Shown: in pieces, positions 22,694 to 40,511 of the stretch
Position numbering within the stretch: the first letter of the stretch is position 1
Layout: every line of letters starts with the position of its first letter
DNA from: Candidatus Villigracilaceae bacterium
GTDB lineage: Bacteria; Chloroflexota; Anaerolineae; Anaerolineales; Villigracilaceae
Length of the DNA: 64,000 bases
Direction of reading: 5' to 3'
NCBI GenBank assembly: GCA_026645935.1
Contig: JAPKMP010000001.1
Location: 62,001 to 126,000 of the forward strand
Notes under the pieces: model-generated
Database searches by the model: none
What the model was told of the DNA's origin: nothing
Seen by the model: the letters and a program-made list of their open reading frames with translations, nothing else
Made by a program: the position numbers and the translations under genes

Positions 22694-25600
22694 TTAAAAT
22701 TCATCTTTGAGTATACGGTTTTGTAAATCGAGCAGACGGCGATAAAACGTGTCTTTGCCCGAAAGCTCGGCATGGGTGCCGCGCTCGATGACCTGTCCGT
22801 GGTTCATGACGAGGATTTCGTCCACATTTTCAAGCCCAATGAGGCGATGTGTGATGAGCAGCGAGGTTTTTTGCTTCATTACATTGAAAAATGTTTCCAA
22901 AACCTGTCCCTCGGTCAGCGGGTCGAGGTTGGCAGTCGGCTCGTCGAGGATCAGGATCGGCGCATCTTTGATCAACGCGCGCGCAATCGCCAGCCGCTGT
23001 CGTTCGCCGCCGGAGAGGCGCAGTCCCTGCTCGCCGATCATGGTGTCATAGCCTTTTGGCAGGCTCATGATGAAATCATGAATCTGTGCGGACTTGCAAG
23101 CCGCTTCTACTTCTTCTCTTGTGACCTTTCTGCGGGCGAAGCGCAGATTTTCATAAATGGATGTGTTGAAGAAGTAGGTGTTCTGGGATACAACCCCGCA
23201 TCTCGCGCGGACCTCGTCCTGATTCAGCGCTTTGAGCGACTCTCCGCCGAGAGCGATTTCTCCTATTTGATAGTCCCAGAAGCGGAGCAACAGATTGGCA
23301 ATGATGCTCTTGCCCGCTCCGCTCGGACCGACAATAGCGAGTGAGGTTTCAGGTTGAAGGTTGAAGGTTACATGTTGCAGGGCAGGGGTGGATTGGGTGG
23401 GGTAGGTGAAAGATAAACCCGTAATTCGTAATTCGTGATTTGTATTTGGTGACTGGTCACTGGTTACTGATACCTGGTCACTGATCTCTGGCTCTGTATC
23501 CACCACCTCGAACAAACGCCTTGCCGCTTCACGGGCGGAGTTCCACATTTGGGCGGCGAGGGGCAGGGGTAAAACAGCTTCAAACGAAGCGAGGGTGAGC
23601 AGGGTCAACGAAGCCAGCATGGGACCGGCGATCTCGCCGTTGATGATCTGCGGAATGGTCAGGAAGAGGATCGTCCACATGCCAAGGTTGGTGAGCAGAG
23701 TTCCCAACGCGGAGTGGATACCCGTCACACGCGCCATGCGGCGTTGGGCATTGCCATACTCGTCTGCGTTGGATGCAATTTGTTTGAGGCGTTCGTCGGC
23801 GCGACCATAGGCGATGAGATCTGCCATGCCTTGAATGCCGTCCACGAGATGGGTTTGCAATTCGGCGCGGAGAGTGATGGTCTGTTCGGCGGACTTGCGG
23901 CTGGTCGTCTGCGCGAGGATGGGGAGGAATAAGCCGAGGCTGAGATAAAAGGTCAAATAGACGGGAGCAAGCAGGGGGTAGAAAGAAGCGAGGAAGATGG
24001 CGGTGAACGTCCCGACGACGATGGCTGTCAGTGGGGGCGAAACAACACGGACGTAGAAATTTTCCAATGTTTCCACATCACCGATGACGCGGGCAAGCAG
24101 GTCACCTGAGCTGAAGTTCATCAGGCGGGCGGGGGCGAGGGGTTCGAGTTTTTCGTAGAACCAGGCGCGCAGTTTGGCGAGCAGGCGGAAGGTGACGTCG
24201 TGCGAGACGAGGCGTTCGAGGTAGCGGAAGACGGCGCGGGTGATGCCGAAAAAGCGCGTGCCGACGGTGGAGACGCCGAGGTCTGCGACGGATACGGCGA
24301 TGGCGGCGGTGGAGATAAGCCACGCCGAAGTGCCCATGAGCGCGACGCTGGCGAGGATGGTGATGGAGCTGAGCAGAACAGAGAGGGCGACGCGATGCCA
24401 GTTTCCGCGCAGGAATTGCAGGAGGCGGGGAAGGATGGGCGGTTGGTGGTTGGTAATTGGTGATGGATGTGATACGTGATGCGTGATACGTGATGCGTAA
24501 TTTGATTCACTCGTTACGTATTCCGCATTACGAATTGCGTTACGACTCTTTCCTCTTTCTTCTTTCACTTTATACGTTTTCACCATACTCGCATACATGC
24601 CGTTCTGTGCAAGCAGTTCGCGGTGTGTGCCTTGTTCGATGATTCTGCCTTCGTCAAGGACGATGATGGTATCGGCTTGGAAGATGGTGTTGAGGCGGTG
24701 GGCGATGGTGATGACGGTTCGTCCCTGCATGAGTTCGCGGGTGGATTCTTCGAGCAGGGATTCAGTTTCGGGGTCGAGCGCGGAGGTGGGTTCGTCGAGA
24801 ATCAGAATTGGTGCGTCTTTGAGGAAGGCGCGGGCGAGGGCGAGGCGTTGGGCTTGTCCGCTGGAGAGACGGGCTCCGCTTTCGCCGACGAGGGTTTCAT
24901 ATTTTTCGGGCAGCGAGTCGATGAAGTCATGCAGGCGCGCAGCTTTGGCAGCGCGGACAATTTCTTCATGGGTCGCATCCGCTTTGCCGAGGCGGATGTT
25001 TTCGGCGATGGTGGCGTGGAAGAGGTGCGGGCGTTGGGGAACCCAGGCGATGGAATGATGAGTGATGATTGATGAGTGAAACGTGATGTTGCCTTGTGTG
25101 GGTTGAATGAAGCCAAGAAGGAGTTGCGCCAATGTGGATTTGCCTGCGCCGGTTTTGCCGACTAATGCGATTTGCTGACCTTTGTTAATTTTTAAATTGA
25201 TGCTTTGTAAAGCAGGCGTTGATTCACCTGGATAAGTAAATGCAACATCTTTTAATAACACCACTGCACTGAGCTCACCAAACTGTTCACTGGTTACTGG
25301 CAACTGTTCACTGGTGACTGGCGTATCCAAAATCTCATAGATCCTCTTCGCCGCCGTCGTGCCATTCATACCCGCATGGAATCTCGCTCCGAGGGCGCGC
25401 AGGGGCATGTAGAACTCAGGCGCGAGGACGAGCAGGAAGAGCGCGGGTTGGAAGTCCATGCCTTTGTAAAGCAGGCGGAAACCGATCTCCACGGCGACGA
25501 TGGCGGTGCTAATGGTGGCAAGCATTTCCAGCGCAAGGGCAGAGAGGAAGGTGATACGTAGAACGCTAAGCGTCGTGTCGCGATATTGCTCTGAGATTTT

Positions 25601-26263
25601 GGCGATGTTTTTCGCTTGTCCCTTTGATTGACCAAAGAGCTTGAGTGTGGTCAGCCCTTGAAGGCTATCGAGGAAGTGGGCACTGAGCAGGCGTAGCGTT
25701 TCGAATTGGCGTTTGGTGACCGCCTCCGCACCCTTGCCGATGATGATCATGAAAAATGGAATTAACGGGGCAGTGATGAGGAAGACGAAGCCGGTGAGCA
25801 GGTCAATGGGGAAGACGAAAAATAAAATGGAAATAGGGATAAGTGCAGTAACAACAAGTTGCGGCAGGTATTGGCTGAAGTACGCATCCAGCGCTTCAAT
25901 GCCTTCGATGGCGGCAGTGGTCAGTTCGCCTGTGCGTTGTCCACGCGAGTAGGCGGGTCCAAGTTTTAGGATGTGGGCGAAGAGCTGCTCGCGTAAATCT
26001 GTTTTGATTTTGACGGCTACTGCGTTGGCAGCAACTTCATTGAGCCAGGTCAGGAAGGCACGTCCACTGATGGCGAGGAGGATGAAGATGAGGGGAGAGG
26101 TGACTTGTGCGAGAGTCTGCTTTTGGAGAAAGACTCCGTCGATCACGCGGCTGAGGAGCCAGGATTGCCAAATGGTCAGGAATCCTGCCAAAAGTCCAGC
26201 AAGAACCGTTAAAGTCAGGGAGAGGCGGGTGTCGCGGGTGAGGGATAAAAGTCGGCGGTGCAT
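22694..26263 (-). CDS. cydDC: Fused CydD-CydC thiol ABC exporter
   Basis: 1189 residues joining two complete ABC half-transporters, CydD first and CydC second. Each has six helices and an ATPase: Walker [13 protein letters not shown] with [14 protein letters not shown], and [12 protein letters not shown] with [15 protein letters not shown]. CydDC exports glutathione/cysteine or haem and is needed for assembling cytochrome bd; it lies just after cydA-cydB, supporting this. The fusion linker and several loops (about 325-335, 395-405, 580-625 and 915-935) are low-complexity segments such as [12 protein letters not shown] and ITNHQPP, encoded by DNA with a seven-base period. These look like repeat insertions tolerated in loops. 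Confidence 0.93.
23344..23493. repeat. Heptad repeat arrays inside cydDC (CydC half)
   Basis: Positions 23344-23378 read GGTTTCA GGTTGAA GGTTGAA GGTTACA, and 23420-23493 read CGTAATT CGTAATT CGTGATT, then GGTGACT GGTCACT GGTTACT. Both have a seven-base period although they lie in coding sequence. The second encodes the loop between the CydC membrane and ATPase domains. Confidence 0.8.
24441..24545. repeat. Heptad repeat array at the CydD/CydC junction
   Basis: About 105 bp of degenerate seven-base units such as GATACGT GATGCGT GATACGT GATGCGT and CGTATTC CGCATTA CGAATTG. It encodes the variable linker joining the two fused half-transporters. Confidence 0.8.
25054..25088. repeat. Heptad repeat array in the CydD ATPase domain
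   Basis: AATGATG AGTGATG ATTGATG AGTGAAA CGTGATG, five units, encoding [15 protein letters not shown]-like sequence just before the Q-loop strand of the ATPase. Confidence 0.75.
25283..25323. repeat. Heptad repeat array between CydD membrane and ATPase domains
   Basis: CTGTTCA CTGGTTA CTGGCAA CTGTTCA CTGGTGA, encoding the repeated peptide [12 protein letters not shown] on the minus strand. Confidence 0.8.
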
Positions 26264-29550: not shown

Positions 29551-31923
29551 TTATTCTTCTTCAAGCGTCATCAAGAACGCGATCAAATCCTGGATCTGCT
29601 CCCCGGTCAGGATATCGCCAAAGTTTTGGATCATCTGCCCTTCAGGATAACCCGGTACGACGAAAGCATTCGGCTCGAGGATGGACTGACGCAAATATTC
29701 CTCGGCGGTCATGCCGGGGACGCGTTCCGCGGCACGGTCTGCGATTCCATAAAAGGACGGACCGATGATGCGTTCATCTTTTTCAAGCGAGTGACAGATG
29801 CGGCAGCCCGCGTTCACGCCGGGGGCATGTTCGTAATAGATTCGTTCGCCCGCCGCCGGGTCGGGGATGTGCATGTCGCGGAAGTTGATCGTCAACGCCT
29901 GGCGCGGTTCGAGCGTGATGGTGTCGTCGAACAGGATTTGTTCGTAAGAGCCATCGGGGCGGTCGTACATTTTGATGACGACGTGATGTTTGCCCGGAGG
30001 CAGGAAGACCTGCTCGAATATCCGCGCACCCTGGTTGATGTGATTATCAATGGCAGTATACGTCTCATCGAAGAGGATGGCAGAATCAACCTCCAGCGTA
30101 ATGCGGATCGGCTGGTCAAGATCAGGCTCGATGGAAGCGGGAGGCGGGACGTCGTGAATCGCGTATCCGCTGTGGTGAGTCATCTGAACTGCGAACGAAG
30201 CGGAATCCTCGCCGTAAAAATTTACCGGGCGGTCGCTCAGCCAGATTTGAATAGCAGTGACGATCGCCATCACGCCGAGCAGGGGCAGGATGAATTTCAA
30301 GTGGTTTTGATTCGGTTTGAACCTGAACGTATCCGCTTCAGACTTGACCTGAGACTTGAGCGCTCGACCGAAATCTGTGGGCGCCGCCCAGGCTGTGTGG
30401 ACGAGCGGAATGAAATTCGGTTTGAGTTTCGGCAGTCGTTCGCCGTTGACGCGGTCATTGAGCCAGACGTTTCCTTCGCGATTGGCGCAATCTTCGGGCG
30501 GACAGCCAATGAACTGCACATTGCCTGCGCCCGCTTCGATTGTCTGGGTGGCGAGGTTTGGGTTTGCCATGGCGACGCAGGTTAGTGGAACGATATGAAC
30601 ATTCGGGTCGTTGAATTGATCGTCGACGCCATGCATGGCGTGACGTTCGCAGGTGAACACGACTTTGATTTTGTGATTGCTCCCGCTGCGGTCCTCGGCG
30701 GCGGGGACGCCGCCTTGAGCAATATGGCTTAGAGTTGTCTTCCACATTGGGTCGAGCGGAAAGTCGCCAAAGGTCAGCGCGTTATCGGGGCAGCTGCCGA
30801 TGCACACGCCGCATGAAACGCATAAGTTCGGGTCGATATCCGCCTGGAATTTGGGACGCGCCCCGTCGGTGCGGGGAATCATTTTGATGGCTAGATACGG
30901 ACAATCTCGTTCGCACAACGTACAGCCGTCACAGTTGTCTAAATCCACACGGACGGGTTGGAGGGCTTTCGATTGGGGCATGATCCACGGCAGAGCTGTG
31001 ACAATGCCAACGATGAAAAAAAGAACACTCCAAAACAAGGTTTGCGGTCCGCGCAGGAAAGTTGGGAGATAGAATAGATAGAAAAGGTCAATGGGGGCTT
31101 GTGCAGTCAGTTGCGCGTCATTGAGGGCGGGCAGCATGCCAAGCGGGAAGAGAACGGATGCAATAAGCAGGACGAAAATGGAGATCGCCATCCAATAACG
31201 CGGCGGCATCCATTTGGCGCGGCTCATGCGTTTGAGATGCAGCCAGAGGAAGTACGCCGTCAACGCGGATAAACCGAGGTGCAGTACGACCACGATCATC
31301 ATAAAGACCCAGCCCGTGCCGGCCGCATCGCCGACGAGATAATCGACAATAAAAGTTTGACCGGACTTGAATCCACCGAAGACTTTGAACAAACTTTGGT
31401 TCAACAGCGCGGCTCGCTGGTCCCAGATCAGCCAATATCCGGTGATGCCAATGAACCAGACAACGACCGCCATACCTACGCCGCTGACCCACGCCAGCCA
31501 GCGTGGACCGCGGAACCGGTCTTGAAAGAATGTGCGCCACCCATGAAGTAAGGCAAAGATGACGGCGGCATCGGAGGCGTAGCGGTGCATGGCGCGGATG
31601 ATGCGGCTGATCGCATTTGCTTCCATGCTTGCAACCGCTTTGTAGGAAATGGTAAACCCGAATGGGTAGAACATGGTCAAGTAAATGCCGGTGAGCAGGA
31701 TGATGACGAGTAAAAAGATGGTGATCGTCCCGGAGTGATAGAGGGGATTGAAGCGCGGATCGCGGATCAGCCGATTCAGCGGAGACTCAAGGCGCAGGGA
31801 AATGGCCTCGAAAGAACCGATCAACTTCCGGTTGGGAGAATCGAGGCGGGTTTTCCAATCCACGCTGGGATTGCGTTCGGAAAGGATGTCTATCAGTTGT
31901 TTTTTGTTGGGGGGAGTGGTCAT
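29551..31923 (-). CDS. Cytochrome b / 2x[4Fe-4S] / MvhD (FlpD) / cytochrome c fusion oxidoreductase
   Basis: About 790 residues (ATG at 31923; a TTG at 31935 is possible). Order: cytochrome b6-like domain with two His pairs spaced 14 apart, H113/H127 and H215/H229, for two b haems; more helices to about 320; a bacterial ferredoxin domain, C331-x2-C334-x2-C337-x3-C341P and C368-x2-C371-x2-C374-x3-C378P; an MvhD/FlpD-like domain with C425, C449, C474 and C479 (FIGCPPEDC); one helix near 542-562; an extracytoplasmic beta region; and a final cytochrome c with CRICH at 707-711. It follows the ba3 oxidase genes. I infer a quinol- or ferredoxin-linked cytochrome c reductase that replaces a bc1 complex; no Rieske protein is nearby. 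Confidence 0.85.
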   Translation of the reverse strand: MTTPPNKKQLIDILSERNPSVDWKTRLDSPNRKLIGSFEAISLRLESPLNRLIRDPRFNPLYHSGTITIFLLVIILLTGIYLTMFYPFGFTISYKAVASMEANAISRIIRAMHRYASDAAVIFALLHGWRTFFQDRFRGPRWLAWVSGVGMAVVVWFIGITGYWLIWDQRAALLNQSLFKVFGGFKSGQTFIVDYLVGDAAGTGWVFMMIVVVLHLGLSALTAYFLWLHLKRMSRAKWMPPRYWMAISIFVLLIASVLFPLGMLPALNDAQLTAQAPIDLFYLFYLPTFLRGPQTLFWSVLFFIVGIVTALPWIMPQSKALQPVRVDLDNCDGCTLCERDCPYLAIKMIPRTDGARPKFQADIDPNLCVSCGVCIGSCPDNALTFGDFPLDPMWKTTLSHIAQGGVPAAEDRSGSNHKIKVVFTCERHAMHGVDDQFNDPNVHIVPLTCVAMANPNLATQTIEAGAGNVQFIGCPPEDCANREGNVWLNDRVNGERLPKLKPNFIPLVHTAWAAPTDFGRALKSQVKSEADTFRFKPNQNHLKFILPLLGVMAIVTAIQIWLSDRPVNFYGEDSASFAVQMTHHSGYAIHDVPPPASIEPDLDQPIRITLEVDSAILFDETYTAIDNHINQGARIFEQVFLPPGKHHVVIKMYDRPDGSYEQILFDDTITLEPRQALTINFRDMHIPDPAAGERIYYEHAPGVNAGCRICHSLEKDERIIGPSFYGIADRAAERVPGMTAEEYLRQSILEPNAFVVPGYPEGQMIQNFGDILTGEQIQDLIAFLMTLEEE

Positions 31924-31938
31924 TTGTTGCGACAAGCA

Positions 31939-31988: not shown

Positions 31989-33638
31989 CTACCAAACCCG
32001 GAAGCCGGGGGAGGTGAGCGCCATGGTTCGGATCATTTCGAACAACACGGGTCCGTACATGAGGACGATGAGCGCGAGCGCGCCATAGATCCACGGAGCC
32101 CAACGATCGAGCCAGGCGGGTCCAAGGGCGGGGTCTTGCATGGGTTCGGCACTGGGAACTTCCACTTCGCTTTCGACTCTCTCTTTATTCGTGGCGGTCT
32201 TGTACATGACGACAAGATAGATCAGGCCGCTGACGAAGAGGATCGCGCCTCCCAACCCGACCTGGAAGAGACGACCGCTCCATTCAGCGGGCACATATGG
32301 AGCCAAACCGAGCGGAACGCGGCGAGGAGCGCCGAGCAGACCGAGTACATGCATCGAGTTGGAGAAGATGATCATGCCCACGAACCACACCCATGCCTGG
32401 ATGGTCGCCCATTTCGGCTGCCAGAGTTTGCGCCCGGTGAGATACGGCACGAGCCAGTAGGAGATGCCGATGAAGCTCAATGTGACTGCGGTTGCAACAG
32501 TGAGGTGGAAGTGACCCGGAATGAAGGCGGTGTTATGCAGCACTAGGTTGACGTTGTAGGAGGCATTCGCCAGACCGCCGATGCCGCCAAAGAAGAACAG
32601 GATGCCCGCGAGCAGTTGAGAAGCCACGGAGGGGTCGCTCCAGTTCAGTTTGCCGATCCAGCCCAGTGCGCCTTTGCCGCCATTCTTCCGCGCGCCGTGT
32701 TCGAGCGAGGCAATGACCGTGAAGGCGGTCATCATGGAGGGGAAGAACACTCCGAAGGTGAACATCGAGTGCAGGAACTTCCAGGTGGGGGGCACGCCGG
32801 GGTCCACATATTGGTGGTGGATGCCGATGGGGGTGGAGAGCACCAGGAAAAGCCAGAAGGAGAGGCGGGCGAGCGAGTCGCTGAACATCTTGCCGTTACC
32901 AGCCTGTTTGGGGAGCATGGCATACCATGAGATGTAGGCGGGCAAAAGCCAGAAGTAGACGAGCGGATGGCCTGTGAACCAGAAATAGGTGCGCGCCAGC
33001 TGCGGGTCCACGCCGTCGATCAAGCCGAGAGACCAGGGCAGCAGCATGGTGAGGATTTCAACTGCAACGCCGAGGGTACAGATCTGCCAGAGCAGTGCGG
33101 TGACGAGAGAACCAAAGGCGACGAACGGTGTGCGTTCGTTCTTGTTCTCTTTGCGCCAGTCGTTGTAGGTCATGAAGAGACCCCAGCCTTCCACCCAACT
33201 GCCGACCACGACGAGGGTCAGACCAACATAGAAGAACGGATTGGCTTTGAGCGGCGGGTAGAAGGTGAACAACACGGTGGCTTGGTTGGCAAGAATCGGA
33301 ATCGCCGCGGCGAGGACGCCCACGACCATCATCCAGAAGCCGACTTTGTTGAGGACGATGTTCTTGAGCGGGCGTTTGAGACCGAATACCACATTGAAGG
33401 TCAGGAAGCCCATGATAAAGAAGGTCGTCCACACCAGGGCGTTCAAAACGCCGTGAACGGTGAGACCTTGATAATAAGACTTGATGAGCGGCTTGAGGTA
33501 GGTGTAGAAATCCCAGCCTGCATGTTCGAAGGCTTGCAATGGACCAAACAGACTGCCCACCGCAAGCGCGAGGATGGCGACCAGGATGTGCGAGCCGATG
33601 AATTTCTTCTCGGCAACGGGTACTTGATATTGTGTCAT
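31989..33638 (-). CDS. B-family (ba3-type) cytochrome c oxidase subunit I
   Basis: 549 residues with about 13 helices. All metal ligands of the family are present: low-spin haem His62 (LTVHGVLNAL) and His378, CuB ligands His224, His274 and His275 (GIHHQ), high-spin haem His376 (IPGHFHLT). The cross-linked Tyr228 in GHPLVYFW is kept, so this is an oxygen reductase rather than one of the NO reductases that evolved from this family. It pumps protons and takes electrons from cytochrome c. GGAGAG precedes the ATG. Order in the operon: IIa, II, I. Confidence 0.95.
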   Translation of the reverse strand: MTQYQVPVAEKKFIGSHILVAILALAVGSLFGPLQAFEHAGWDFYTYLKPLIKSYYQGLTVHGVLNALVWTTFFIMGFLTFNVVFGLKRPLKNIVLNKVGFWMMVVGVLAAAIPILANQATVLFTFYPPLKANPFFYVGLTLVVVGSWVEGWGLFMTYNDWRKENKNERTPFVAFGSLVTALLWQICTLGVAVEILTMLLPWSLGLIDGVDPQLARTYFWFTGHPLVYFWLLPAYISWYAMLPKQAGNGKMFSDSLARLSFWLFLVLSTPIGIHHQYVDPGVPPTWKFLHSMFTFGVFFPSMMTAFTVIASLEHGARKNGGKGALGWIGKLNWSDPSVASQLLAGILFFFGGIGGLANASYNVNLVLHNTAFIPGHFHLTVATAVTLSFIGISYWLVPYLTGRKLWQPKWATIQAWVWFVGMIIFSNSMHVLGLLGAPRRVPLGLAPYVPAEWSGRLFQVGLGGAILFVSGLIYLVVMYKTATNKERVESEVEVPSAEPMQDPALGPAWLDRWAPWIYGALALIVLMYGPVLFEMIRTMALTSPGFRVW

Positions 33639-36506: not shown

Positions 36507-39437
36507 CTATGGCACAGGCGTGATAGTGGATGTAACTGCAAGCGGGGACACCGGAATCTCAGTTACCATGGGCGCCGGGACTTCTGTGGAGGAGGGAGCA
36601 GGCTCTGGACACCCCATGATACGAGGATTTATCCAAGCTGCCCTGTTTTCATTAGATATGTTAAGGGTATCCATCTGTAAAACAAGCGAGCCCGTTCTCC
36701 CGGCGATGGAAGAAAGGGAAAAATCAATCTCTGTGATCCTGCCGTCGAAGAATTCACCTATTACCCATAACTCGATGATTTCGTTATCCTCCCCTGCAAA
36801 GTAGATTCTAAACAGGATTGAACATCCGTGTGCATTTCCCAGACAGCCTGCATATCCTTCGAGCGTGTCGTAGGCGGAAAATTTGATTGCGGATGTCCGA
36901 AGGACAACTCTCGAAATCAGCCTGTCTTCTGAAAGCCGGATAGAAATGATCTTCCCAAAGAACGTACCTGTTTCGAAAAGTCCGATTTCTTCCCGCGCGA
37001 TGATATCATTGTCTTGGCATGTGATTTGATCTCCGTCGATTCTGATCTCGAGATTGCAGTAATTATCAAAAAAATCGAAGATCACCGTCTTCTCGGGAAC
37101 CACTGTCACAGCGGGGATCGATGATTCTATTTGGTTCGCTGACTGAGTGAAACTTGGATTGGGGGAGGGGCTGGTTGGTGATATGGCAGCCGTACGAGCA
37201 GGTTCAATGCTTGCGATCTCCGTTTTGGTTGGAGTCTGCATGGACGTGTTGGAAGGCATGACCGTTGAGGTTTGATCCCCAATCGCATATAACATCCCCT
37301 CTTCCGAAGCAACGTACAACTGTCCGGGAATTAACGCCACACCGGAAATACCGACGGATCCTTCGAGCGGCAGGGACCATTTCGATTCGCGCGCCCCTTT
37401 TTCCACAGCCGAGCATTCGGCATGGTCGCCCCGCGTTCCGCAAATGTAAAAGACAAAGTTCTCATCCATGCCGCCGATCACACTCGGGCGGTACGGGAAT
37501 TGCGCGCGGTTGAGCATGTTACCCTTTTTATCGAGCCAGAGCAGGCTGCTGTCCTCCGTTCCCTCGCCGGAGTAATGAAGCCACATGCCGCCGTCGACAA
37601 AAACACCCGCCATGCCGGGGAAACCAAAGAATGCTGTGCGCGACCATTCCATGTAACTGCGCTGTTCGGCTTTCCCGTCGATATATTCCCAGCCGGTCAT
37701 TTTGTTCTCTATCCTGGCATAAAGCAAACCGCTCTGCCCAACCAGGAACTGCTCGGTGGGCGGCAGGCTTTCGAATTCGAGGATCTCGCCCGATGTTGCA
37801 TCGATCACTGCATTTCGCAAAAAGATGAACGATTCATCGGGGCTGAGGATGGGTGTAAAAGTGACTCGGCGGGAAAAAGCGGCAGTATCCCAAAGGAGAG
37901 TCCCGGTCGAAGAGGCCGCGCGGATGTTGCCGGTTACCATGTAATATGCCACTTTATTGTTACCGATCACAGGTCCGGATGTGGCTTCGAAACTATCTGG
38001 AATCTCAAGATACCAGCGCTCTTCGCCGGTTGACGTGAAGGAGGTCAGCCCGCCGCGCATGTCTGTGACATAGATATTGCCTTCGGCGTCCAATCCGGGC
38101 GCGCCGACTCCGCCAGCACGGATGGAGGATGTCCACTTGAGCGAGCCATCCGGATTCAGAGCATGCAGGGAGCCGTTCATGGTGAGGACATACACGCTTC
38201 CATCCGCGGCGACGGCGGGTCCGCCTGAGAAGCCTTGGGCCTCGCTGAAAGCCCACATTACTTTCGGTGACTCGATCCCCGGCGCATTGACAAATAGCGT
38301 GGCTGACGGCGACCCGTACTGACTCGACCATAAATGCCCGCCCGGTGATTGCGCCGGTTTCACCTGAGTTTCAGTCAAAGTCTTTACCTGATTGAATATT
38401 CCAATAATGACGGCCAATAAACCAATGACCAGTACGGTAAAAGCAAATGGAGATGCTTTCGCCGATTTCTTAACCGGTAATATCAACCATTCTTCCAATC
38501 CCCAACGCAAACGAAGGAATAAGTCAAAGAAACGCGGCGAAGGCGAGCCGGAACTGGCAACACGGCGCAAGCCTTCACCCAATAAATTGAATCCAAGCAC
38601 GGTGATGAAGACGAAAGTTCCCGACGCGAACAACTTCCACGGGCTGACGTAAATATCCTCATTCACGCCCGAAAGCAATTGCCCGAGCTCCGGCATCCCG
38701 CGCAGGCGTGTGGCGGTCGTATCGCTGATCCAAACCCACACTTCGCCGCCCACGTAATAACCCAGGAATCCCAGCCCGGCCGTGAGCAGAATCGTGGAAC
38801 TGATCTCCAGCGCAAGCAACATCCAAACATATGGGAGCACGAGCCGTAAAATATGATTGAAAACAATCGCCCAATTGCTTTGCCCCAATGATCGGCTGGC
38901 TTCTATGAACGATTGTTCCCGCGCCACCCGGGTCTGTTCGCGGACGAGCCGGGCCGAATCCGCCCAGCCGGTGATCGATAACCCGAGGACGAATCCCCAG
39001 GGCTGCCATATATCTCCCGTCAGGGCAACGACCGCCAACGCAACCAGCAAGGTTGGAATGGAGAGGGCGGCGCCGATGAGCCCGTTCAAGAACGACCCGA
39101 ACGCGTTCTTGTTCCATCCGGCCAGTAGTCCGATCACCGTCCCAATCAGCAAGCGAAGAGCGGCTACATAACCAGTCAGGATCAACGTCGGGCGTAACGC
39201 CCAAAGCACTTGACTCAGCACGTCGCGCCCCCAACCGTCTGTGCCCAATGGATATTCGGGATATGTGAAAGGCGGGAAAGGCGCGGAGACGAATTTGCCG
39301 TCCACCTGCATGACTCGGGTTTCTTCGAGGGGATTGCGCGGAGCGAGGCTGGGTCCGGCAAAGGCAAGGGTGAGGGAAAAGCCCACGATGAACAAACCCA
39401 AAACCAATGGAAGGTTGAGGCGGGGTTTAGTCCGCAT
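36507..39437 (-). CDS. DppC-type ABC permease fused to an extracytoplasmic PQQ-like beta-propeller
   Basis: 976 residues. Residues 1-290 are an oligopeptide-type permease: long periplasmic loop after helix 1, and the ATPase-coupling motif EASRSLGQSNWAIVF near 179. An extra helix at about 329-348 is followed by a beta-propeller of PQQ/WD-type repeats (about 365-735: AVAADGSVYVLTMNGSLHAL, GLDAEGNIYVTD), a T/P-rich spacer, and a beta-rich domain (790-950) with a T/P-rich tail. Normal DppC ends near residue 300. It overlaps the DppB-like gene by 11 bp. No ATPase or binding protein is adjacent; the propeller may serve as a built-in ligand-binding or sensing part. Confidence 0.85.
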   Translation of the reverse strand: MRTKPRLNLPLVLGLFIVGFSLTLAFAGPSLAPRNPLEETRVMQVDGKFVSAPFPPFTYPEYPLGTDGWGRDVLSQVLWALRPTLILTGYVAALRLLIGTVIGLLAGWNKNAFGSFLNGLIGAALSIPTLLVALAVVALTGDIWQPWGFVLGLSITGWADSARLVREQTRVAREQSFIEASRSLGQSNWAIVFNHILRLVLPYVWMLLALEISSTILLTAGLGFLGYYVGGEVWVWISDTTATRLRGMPELGQLLSGVNEDIYVSPWKLFASGTFVFITVLGFNLLGEGLRRVASSGSPSPRFFDLFLRLRWGLEEWLILPVKKSAKASPFAFTVLVIGLLAVIIGIFNQVKTLTETQVKPAQSPGGHLWSSQYGSPSATLFVNAPGIESPKVMWAFSEAQGFSGGPAVAADGSVYVLTMNGSLHALNPDGSLKWTSSIRAGGVGAPGLDAEGNIYVTDMRGGLTSFTSTGEERWYLEIPDSFEATSGPVIGNNKVAYYMVTGNIRAASSTGTLLWDTAAFSRRVTFTPILSPDESFIFLRNAVIDATSGEILEFESLPPTEQFLVGQSGLLYARIENKMTGWEYIDGKAEQRSYMEWSRTAFFGFPGMAGVFVDGGMWLHYSGEGTEDSSLLWLDKKGNMLNRAQFPYRPSVIGGMDENFVFYICGTRGDHAECSAVEKGARESKWSLPLEGSVGISGVALIPGQLYVASEEGMLYAIGDQTSTVMPSNTSMQTPTKTEIASIEPARTAAISPTSPSPNPSFTQSANQIESSIPAVTVVPEKTVIFDFFDNYCNLEIRIDGDQITCQDNDIIAREEIGLFETGTFFGKIISIRLSEDRLISRVVLRTSAIKFSAYDTLEGYAGCLGNAHGCSILFRIYFAGEDNEIIELWVIGEFFDGRITEIDFSLSSIAGRTGSLVLQMDTLNISNENRAAWINPRIMGCPEPAPSSTEVPAPMVTEIPVSPLAVTSTITPVP

Positions 39438-40413
39438 TTACACCTCCATGCGGATGGGTCCTCAATCGCGGGTCGGAGAAATATGTCAGAATTCCAGCGG
39501 CTGTATTCGAGATGATCAAGATCGCGCCCAATACGGTGACCACGGTCGCGACGGTTGGCGCGTGCAGATATGCTGAAGGTAGGACGCCGCCCGCAATGGT
39601 GGCCGTTTGCGGCGGCTGGATGGAAAGCGCCAACTGCCTGCCAAGCCCGGGCCAGCCGAACAGCCATTCGACAAGGATGAGCTCGCCGATCATCAGACTC
39701 ATGGAAGAAGCGATGACCTGGAACATCGGCACATAAATATTCCGCAGGGCTGTTTTTATCTTTACCAGCCGCCACGAGTGACCGAGCCCGCGCGCGACCG
39801 TGACGTAGGTTTTATGGAATTCGTCGCTCAATAACGAAGCGGTCATTTGCGCGATCTGCAAAGTCGGGCGGAAGGAAAGGGCGATGACCGGGAATACAAG
39901 ATGTGAATCCCAGCCGAATCCTCCAAGCGGGAAAGGAAGGTCGCCTTTACTGGATGGCGTCAGAAACAAATAAAGGACGGAGAGGGTGATCAACACAGCC
40001 CCCACATAAAAACCCGGCATCGCCAGGCTCATCGTGGAGATGGGAATCAACCAGCGGCTGACGCGCGGTGGATTCGTCTTCGCGGCTCGCATGCCGAGAA
40101 ACACCCCAAAAAGAAGGCTGGCTGAGAAGGCGATGCCCAGCAAGCCAAAACTGGCATTTGCAGCCGAATCCACGACATCGAGGACGGTCATGCCTGCGGC
40201 ATTGGGCACAGGCGGAGGCTCGCCATTGCGAAAGGCGTTTATGTATTCCAGATAAAAGGGGAGGACGGGAGGTGTTTCTTCTTGCCGCGCAAAGATGGGA
40301 TTGTTTTCCATCTGCGCATATCGTCCGTAATGTGCGTAGGAGAATGCCAGGAAATTCACCCCGGCAATGAGAATCGCCATTCCCGCAATTCTTTTTACGA
40401 TGAAAGCAAGCAT
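39427..40413 (-). CDS. DppB-type ABC transporter permease
   Basis: Start at 40413 (MLAFIVKRIAGMAI); 328 residues, six helices. The N-terminal helix with basic residues, the long periplasmic loop and the coupling loop ARGLGHSWRLVKIKTALRN are typical of the first permease of peptide/nickel transporters. Paired with the fusion permease; genes for ATPases or a substrate-binding protein are absent from the window. Confidence 0.85.
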   Translation of the reverse strand: MLAFIVKRIAGMAILIAGVNFLAFSYAHYGRYAQMENNPIFARQEETPPVLPFYLEYINAFRNGEPPPVPNAAGMTVLDVVDSAANASFGLLGIAFSASLLFGVFLGMRAAKTNPPRVSRWLIPISTMSLAMPGFYVGAVLITLSVLYLFLTPSSKGDLPFPLGGFGWDSHLVFPVIALSFRPTLQIAQMTASLLSDEFHKTYVTVARGLGHSWRLVKIKTALRNIYVPMFQVIASSMSLMIGELILVEWLFGWPGLGRQLALSIQPPQTATIAGGVLPSAYLHAPTVATVVTVLGAILIISNTAAGILTYFSDPRLRTHPHGGVNAD

Positions 40414-40511
40414 GTCGGTGGGATAATAACATGAATCCGGCGGACTTCCTTCGTTCAAGTCTTCGACGTGCGCGGGTGATATAATCTTCGAAAATCAACT
40501 CTGAGGTAACG

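Follow-up and report, generated by a model that had tools for sequence, protein, structure and literature searches.

The window analyzed here is a 64,000-nucleotide stretch of a Candidatus Villigracilaceae bacterium genome (Chloroflexota; Anaerolineales; assembly GCA_026645935.1, contig JAPKMP010000001.1, positions 62,001 to 126,000 of the forward strand). On its minus strand it encodes a pair of Opp/Dpp-type ATP-binding cassette (ABC) permeases, of which the OppC-type member continues in the same chain into a β-propeller. The fusion is conserved among relatives, and both permeases keep their cytoplasmic coupling loops. The pair has neither the scoop motif that serves a free substrate-binding protein (SBP) nor an SBP-like gene nearby, and the outer mouth loop of OppC is lengthened. 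Our tentative interpretation, which we regard as possible rather than probable, is that the propeller itself captures a ligand, or gates the mouth, in an Opp-fold importer that works without a free binding protein.

An OppC-type permease continued by a propeller

The fused chain is an open frame of 976 residues (36507-39437, minus strand), and its OppB-type partner is one of 328 residues (39427-40413, minus strand), extendable by 15 residues from an alternative in-frame TTG at 40458. The two frames, both open, share 11 bases, confirming an overlap described in the sequence-only reading that preceded this analysis. OppB matches the Pfam family BPD_transp_1 at 72.2 bits, with DppB (8z1v_A, E 2.2e-12) as its closest solved structure by sequence. 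The transmembrane domain of OppC (residues 1-300; 38538-39437, minus strand) reaches 61.4 bits over residues 99-237 (Pfam cut-off 26.4, exceeded by both chains) and superposes on E. coli DppC (8z1v_B) with a VIA Z of 27.4 and an rmsd of 1.8 over 266 residues at 32% identity. The OppC_N family (PF12911) scores 9.8 bits in this chain against a cut-off of 23.9, compared with 32.7 bits in a relative (locus L084), and no NCBIfam equivalog is reached, the best being Opp2C with 133.6 bits against 300 required. As read from the sequence, the EAA coupling loops are kept in both OppB and OppC. That of OppC (EASRSLG...LP, about residues 176-203; 38829-38912, minus strand) includes E179 and G185, which are invariant across alignment A2 of the propeller permeases, where the further domains of L141, L143, L151, L159 and L161 were trimmed off behind the propeller and the starts of L141, L150, L152 and L165 were trimmed as well.

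The earlier description of a DppC-type permease running through an extra helix into a propeller and a T/P-rich spacer is borne out by Pfam and by an AlphaFold model of the whole chain (29-row alignment; mean pLDDT 69.9, pTM 0.48). In the model, permease helices extend to residue 295 and are followed by a helix at 301-328, another at 330-354 and the propeller at 360-722, whose strands reach residue 720 and most blocks of which have pLDDT values of 80-96. The helix at 330-354 (38376-38450, minus strand) forms a seventh transmembrane helix, and residues 296-330, just ahead of it, hold six K/R against three D/E. DppC has six helices, as described in the available text of PMC12136057. From the seventh helix and the basic stretch before it, we infer that the propeller lies outside the membrane.

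The propeller (residues 360-722; 37272-38360, minus strand) matches PQQ_2/BamB in two stretches (54.7 bits; Pfam cut-off 27.6). Structural matches span mainly residues 384-722, with other, unlisted folds possible; among those listed the closest is mycobacterial Rv3035 (9p3g_A, VIA Z 32.0), followed by YxaL (7dxn_B, 30.6), BamB structures (about 27-28) and 4mh1_B, of the PQQ-dependent dehydrogenase type (27.0), the last a likeness at fold level only. The BamB equivalog TIGR03300 is not reached by the propeller (40 bits against 285.2 required). All 28 rows that have a letter at positions 666 and 675 (29 rows in all) show the cysteines C666 and C675, the pattern expected of an outside disulphide.

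Beyond the propeller lie a T/P/S-rich linker (residues 723-790; 37068-37271, minus strand) and a C-terminal domain with a T/P-rich tail (residues 791-976 and the stop; 36507-37067, minus strand); residues 724-976 are modelled without confident structure, at pLDDT under 50. The C-terminal region had been described as another beta domain. It does recur as a unit, being about 44% identical over about 200 residues to C-termini of the L102 and L104 proteins by BLAST, but it has neither a Pfam match nor a confident model. Among BLAST-tagged OppC loci this domain is found only in the window and in L074, from the closely related genome G032, and we therefore regard it as an addition belonging to these two close relatives. 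The same domain ends large T/P-rich proteins of the same order (L102:1-1140, L104:3115-8661, L105:4968-10049, L106:7538-11662 and L107:2828-7531), three of which (L105, L106 and L107) also carry an N_BRCA1_IG domain.

Docking parts for a binding protein

In E. coli DppABCDF, a scoop between TM1 and TM2 of DppB enters the cleft of the binding protein DppA. Removal of the scoop leaves about a quarter of the ATPase activity, from which the authors infer poor transport, and the DppBCDF translocator is inactive without DppA (available text of PMC12136057). The region of the window's OppB where the scoop would be expected (residues 29-52, 24 residues; 40258-40329, minus strand) has no PGxP- or LGLDxP-type motif. 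Counts were made on OppB proteins of 250-420 aa plus the B part of single B-C-M28 chains (see below), with rows gapped at the anchors excluded. The segment from TM1 to the next anchor is at least 33 residues long in 32 of 34 canonical OppB and in none of 31 propeller partners (longest 28; window 24). A PGxP-type motif occurs in 23/34 canonical proteins and 0/31 propeller partners, and an LGLDxP-type motif in 10/34 and 0/31, respectively. A loose LGLDxP pattern is matched by 4 of 27 B-C-M28 rows, and the long-segment OppB proteins at the M28 loci L249, L271 and L275 each adjoin a second, unfused OppC in the locus.

The outside loop of OppC that precedes the last permease helix, placed by comparison of group loop lengths, comprises 22 residues in the window (residues 227-248; 38694-38759, minus strand). 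With the same exclusion of gapped rows, this mouth loop measures 21-25 residues in 38 propeller rows, against a median of 7 and a range of 7-20 in 36 plain rows. It measures 21-28 residues in M28-fused rows and 27-28 in plain Chloroflexota sisters.

Binding-protein and ATPase genes around the pair

No SBP gene and no OppD/F-like gene lies beside the window's pair. The earlier statement that no binding protein or ATPase is near is right for Opp-type genes; an unrelated, self-contained ABC exporter, a single chain of 1189 aa with two membrane and two ATPase parts, is encoded at 22697-26263. The rest of the genome (4.33 Mb, 70 contigs), where the sequence-only reading had advised looking for OppD/F, holds eight oligo_HPY matches, away from the pair, together with 15 SBP_bac_5 matches, 12 of them over the cut-off and none on the window's contig (C11). 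Seven other Opp-reference pairs occur in the ten stretches compared (on C44, C70, C22 twice, C16, C66 and C2). All seven have an SBP_bac_5 match close by and four have ATPase genes, whereas those on C44, C70 and C22 (200 kb) have no Opp-type ATPases within the 20-kb stretch. Since three of the seven are likewise without such ATPases nearby, distant ATPases seem usual in this genome; the lack of an SBP gene is, among the eight pairs compared, peculiar to the window's. One frame on C16 (L099:7818, about 17.8-19.8 kb) joins OppC and an oligo_HPY ATPase in 642 aa.

BLAST searches for neighbors of related loci used as references seven SBPs and as many Opp ATPases from the window's genome, so that distant SBPs could escape, and neighbors were counted for OppC matches of at least 100 bits. 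An SBP-like gene lies within 4 kb at none of 29 named propeller loci, none of 13 M28-fused loci and 15 of 31 plain OppC loci. Where at least 3.5 kb is present on both sides, the counts are 0/17, 0/3 and 13/18. OppD/F-like genes within 4 kb number 0/29, 0/13 and 17/31, and in the class set an SBP-like gene is near 2 of 52 M28-fused loci. The three locus sets overlap, with the same contigs under two names, and are not additive.

Distribution and constraint of the fusion

A search for the same architecture, which the sequence-only reading had recommended, was successful. Of the 61 genomes searched, the window's own among them, 14 match over both permease and propeller. The genus contributes 11 (of 37) and the order's other families 3 (of 24); the copy in G034 starts only at residue 98, at a contig end. 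At class level, at least 14 of 396 genomes, own included, match both parts; two candidates per genome were scored at E <= 1e-50, so that these counts are lower bounds. A phylum sample contained the fusion in 2 of 400 genomes, both of them known before. Together, the genomes with the fusion represent ten family codes. In a contig collection, from which the best 80 of 203 confirmed stretches were taken (again giving lower bounds), every full-length propeller locus (L139-L166) bears the title Chloroflexota or that of a group within it, and 15 of the 28 are Anaerolineales. The window's nearest relatives among those 80 are two Anaerolineales loci from metagenome-assembled genomes (MAGs), L139 and L140. 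The 38 propeller rows form one clade with support 99 in a tree that came with a long-branch warning, and 19 of them again form one clade, with support 96, in a second tree under a better model. At L076:2417-6418, the OppC-propeller chain continues into a complete DUF885 domain (474 bits). The same genome encodes at L077:7369-12108 an OppC in which PQQ_2 matches three stretches; a further propeller gene lies ahead of it.

Selection was assessed on one pair only, the window and G032 (99% identical). Among the 300 codons of the permease, 20 differ silently and 2 with replacement of the residue (NG86 dN/dS 0.033); for the 363 codons of the propeller the corresponding counts are 11 and 2 (0.082). 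The joint region (residues 301-359) has 2 silent and 3 replacing changes in 59 codons, the linker and C-terminal domain are unchanged, and the tail has 1 silent and 4 replacing changes of 46.

M28 domains at the same place in related permeases

In related permeases, the place taken here by the propeller is occupied by an M28 domain. The class search yielded 97 further places, 85 of them on open frames of 601-1501 aa with the permease alone matched; among 68 inspected, 52 OppC frames also match an M28 domain and seven are plain. The fusions occur as OppC-M28, as OppB-OppC-M28 in a single chain and as ABC_tran-OppB-OppC-M28 in a single chain. Six positions, which we take to be the catalytic and metal positions, were defined on the intact OppB-fused M28 domain of L215. 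All six are intact in 0 of 55 OppC-fused domains and in 14 of 16 free-standing M28 neighbors. The count covers those of 59 fused rows that had enough aligned motif columns, excludes copies named L1xx, L214 and the OppB-fused L215, and may include misaligned degenerate rows. Judged by these residues, the OppC-fused M28 domains are catalytically dead, catalysis having been lost. A domain that is kept but unable to cut is most easily understood as a binding or gating part, and these fusions would thus speak for binding rather than cutting.

Several loci of this group are unusual in themselves. Single chains of ABC ATPase, OppB, OppC and M28 are encoded at L246:6353-10678, L256:206-4663 and L260:64-4464 (1442, 1486 and 1466 aa; Pfam was run on L246 and L256), and the ATPase of L246 is LolD-like, with SLSLAEKQ in the signature region in place of LSGGQ. 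The Firmicutes loci L189:3467-8019 (Fusibacter paucivorans) and L215:3296-8139 (Anaerosolibacter MAG) combine an OppB bearing an N-terminal M28 part with an extended OppC; OppD and OppF adjoin the fused permeases, and no SBP-like gene lies within 4 kb. The M28 part of L215 scores 134 bits with its catalytic residues intact, that of L189 19.2 bits, under the Pfam cut-off. The extended OppC proteins are recognized by BLAST, that of L215 without a Pfam match. At L238:205-6385, an OppC-M28 gene is followed 3' by a PD40-propeller gene (410 aa) and then by a gene whose 1649-aa product has two M28 stretches as well as a PA domain, and at L274:6321-8414 OppC is followed by TPR and a C-terminal LysM in one chain. 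An AlphaFold model of a natural B-C-M28 chain (mean pLDDT 53.6, pTM 0.39) was set aside.

Possible roles of the propeller

In the interpretation that we prefer, OppB and the OppC-propeller chain would together be the membrane component of an Opp/Dpp-fold type I ABC importer driven by Opp-type ATPases whose genes lie elsewhere in the genome. This importer would no longer use a free DppA-type binding protein. The seventh helix would take the chain out of the cytoplasm and leave the propeller on a short tether above the outer mouth, where it would take over the job of the binding protein, either presenting the ligand or capping the mouth and triggering the cycle. Import as the direction of transport and the sharing of ATPases are presumed in this scheme and, above all, so is capture by the propeller. 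Substitution for the binding protein had been suggested from the sequence alone. It is favored by the absent SBP genes, the missing scoop, the longer mouth loop and the parallel of the dead M28 domains, but the unfused sisters are SBP-less too, and Rv3035 partners an SBP-fold lipoprotein. More broadly, it is conceivable, though short of likely, that Chloroflexota and in part Firmicutes possess a separate Opp-fold importer lineage. This lineage would have lost the free binding protein and the scoop, enlarged the OppC mouth and gained non-SBP tethered domains more than once for capture (a BamB-like propeller; a dead M28 domain), the extreme being a single chain that also contains the ATPase and both permeases.

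Several observations weigh against capture by the propeller. No ligand site was identified in the propeller, and at a pTM of 0.48 it has no fixed position relative to the permease, so that structure prediction, proposed earlier as a check on packing, recovered the fold but not an arrangement of the two parts. Mean identity to the window is 50% for the permease and 31% for the propeller but 11% for TM7 and 14% for the linker, and such poor conservation gives no hint of fine tuning at the joint. The propeller clade is also sister to 13 plain, unfused Chloroflexota OppC (union support 99), in a tree from a short search on rows randomly thinned to 76, with the outgroup not on one side of a branch; in this tree the wider group also takes in two plain rows, L174 and L175. 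The plain sisters have no SBP-like neighbor at any of seven loci counted, and none was tagged in six further stretches of 13-14 kb. Their OppB proteins lack the PGxP motif (0/13), with the long segment still present in 6/13. A fused domain is thus not needed for the SBP-less state. For the same reason, loss of the SBP link and remodelling of the mouth seem older than the propeller, which may have joined later in the role of receptor, dock or regulator.

OppD/F genes lie beside the plain sister pairs in four of the seven loci; in the six other stretches no strong OppD/F was tagged, and L302 gives a weak 53-bit ATPase match. Neighbors of 758-860 aa were considered as partners of the plain sisters, but the four tested are UvrD-type helicases and are taken as chance, while a 403-aa neighbor in L230 matches no Pfam family. 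At L239:2902-8128, a plain sister OppBC follows genes that resemble, by eye, the proline racemase family, amino-acid oxidases and DapA-type aldolases, possibly a hydroxyproline-type catabolic set.

A serious alternative, though a doubtful one, is that the propeller acts as a tethered dock for a separate outside protein, such as an SBP-fold protein, a lipoprotein or a secreted hydrolase, which supplies the substrate. BamB-type propellers are protein-binding folds, and the closest listed structural relative, Rv3035, is a partner protein in a complex, which also counts against capture. According to the available text of PMC12802301, the M. marinum ortholog of Rv3035, a predicted eight-bladed propeller, co-purifies with the SBP-fold lipoprotein FecB, and the complex is described as including AftB (also by the PDB title of 9p3f). 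This type of propeller can thus hold an SBP-fold protein. Docking is further suggested by the DUF885 domain that follows the propeller in the L076 chain and, in the M28 branch, by the PD40-propeller and free M28 genes downstream of OppC-M28 in L238. However, no gene emerges as an obvious partner throughout the clade when gene lengths and tags next to the propeller permeases are compared by eye, and OppB lacks the scoop used by SBPs.

It is unlikely that the propeller senses rather than captures, as a transceptor or envelope sensor whose state the ABC module relays across the membrane. LolD/FtsE-type ATPases serve mechanotransmission systems, and one single chain places a LolD-like ATPase ahead of B-C-M28. 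The LysM-bearing OppC of L274, within the wider group, is the sole side hint for the earlier suggestion that the propeller reports on the cell wall. An Rrf2-type regulator is also the next gene downstream in the window, and genes of similar length (length only) occupy that place in L074 and L075. Against this, the permease part, including the EAA loop, is the best conserved, as for a working transporter. Less probable still is an exporter, or a module driven by an unrelated ATPase, whose propeller would guide the product outside. An exporter too would have no SBP and no scoop, and NCBIfam includes export-annotated members of this fold (SapB/SapC names), but the dihydropyrimidinase that accompanies one sub-clade (see below) is catabolic, and the DppC/OppC-type solved structures among the matches listed are importers. 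An error of assembly or frame joining can be dismissed, as can decay of the gene: the halves match separately in G058 and the copy in G052 is partial, perhaps owing to assembly gaps there, but fused frames are open in many other assemblies, which in practice excludes a joining error near residue 350, and few replacing changes separate the window from G032.

Relation to known systems

The window's pair shares the permease fold, the coupling loops and the B/C pairing of E. coli DppBC (PDB 8z1v-8z1z), but has no scoop motif, carries a seventh helix and a propeller, and adjoins no SBP or ATPase gene. Its mouth loop is longer than in the plain OppC rows, among which E. coli DppC was not measured. 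The fused domains of GlnPQ and OpuA have the SBP fold. Both are type I importers with covalently linked substrate-binding domains, as the available text of PMC8025302 and PMC11065425 describes, and thus, like the window's chain, have an outside receptor joined covalently to the permease. In contrast to their substrate-binding domains, the window's fused domain is a propeller and that of related permeases a dead M28 fold. Like the propeller permeases, the M28-fused Opp permeases found in Chloroflexota and Firmicutes have an outside domain after OppC, a long mouth loop and almost no SBP genes nearby. They differ in the M28 fold and in the single B-C or ATPase-B-C chains of some members, and L189 and L215 keep OppD/OppF.

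BamB is a lipoprotein of the outer-membrane BAM complex. Its propeller and that of YxaL, both of PQQ type, have the fold (VIA Z about 27-31) and the Pfam family PQQ_2 of the window's propeller. The Rv3035-FecB-AftB complex (9p3f/9p3g) offers the closest listed propeller match, an outside propeller beside an SBP-fold protein. It differs from the window's fusion in consisting of separate polypeptides, in being an arabinosyltransferase complex and in containing no ABC permease.

To our knowledge, type I ABC importers are regarded as SBP-dependent. Covalent receptors are already known from GlnPQ and OpuA, while a propeller or M28 domain fused to an ABC permease is apparently undescribed: no paper on either was found in the open-licence literature, which is weak evidence of absence. 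The scoop-less clade with tethered non-SBP domains provides a natural sequence set on how the transport cycle starts without a free binding protein, and it points to a possible function for many as yet unassigned permeases of the hard-to-grow Anaerolineae. The dead M28 domains offer a parallel, testable case of an enzyme fold turned into a transporter part.

Cargo hints and neighboring genes

At L084, a dihydropyrimidinase gene follows the OppC-propeller with a 4-base overlap. The two proteins of this sub-clade that were tested, from L084 and L142, pass the cut-off of 393.25 bits with 508.8 and 503.1 bits, respectively. Genes of 470-485 aa stand at the same place in L142, L144, L146, L149, L150, L154, L156, L163 and L164, among which L142 is the one tested by profile. 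These genes hint at hydantoin- or dihydropyrimidine-like compounds or other small nutrients as cargo in that sub-clade, but not in the window's genome. There, the pair is followed directly by the Rrf2-type regulator and then by respiratory genes, so that peptide transport by the window's pair is an assumption from the family name. Elsewhere in the window, at 29554-31935, a 794-aa chain combines cytochrome b and 4Fe-4S motifs, a FlpD-like stretch and a cytochrome c end, an unusual electron-transfer fusion that adjoins a COX1 gene at 31992-33638.

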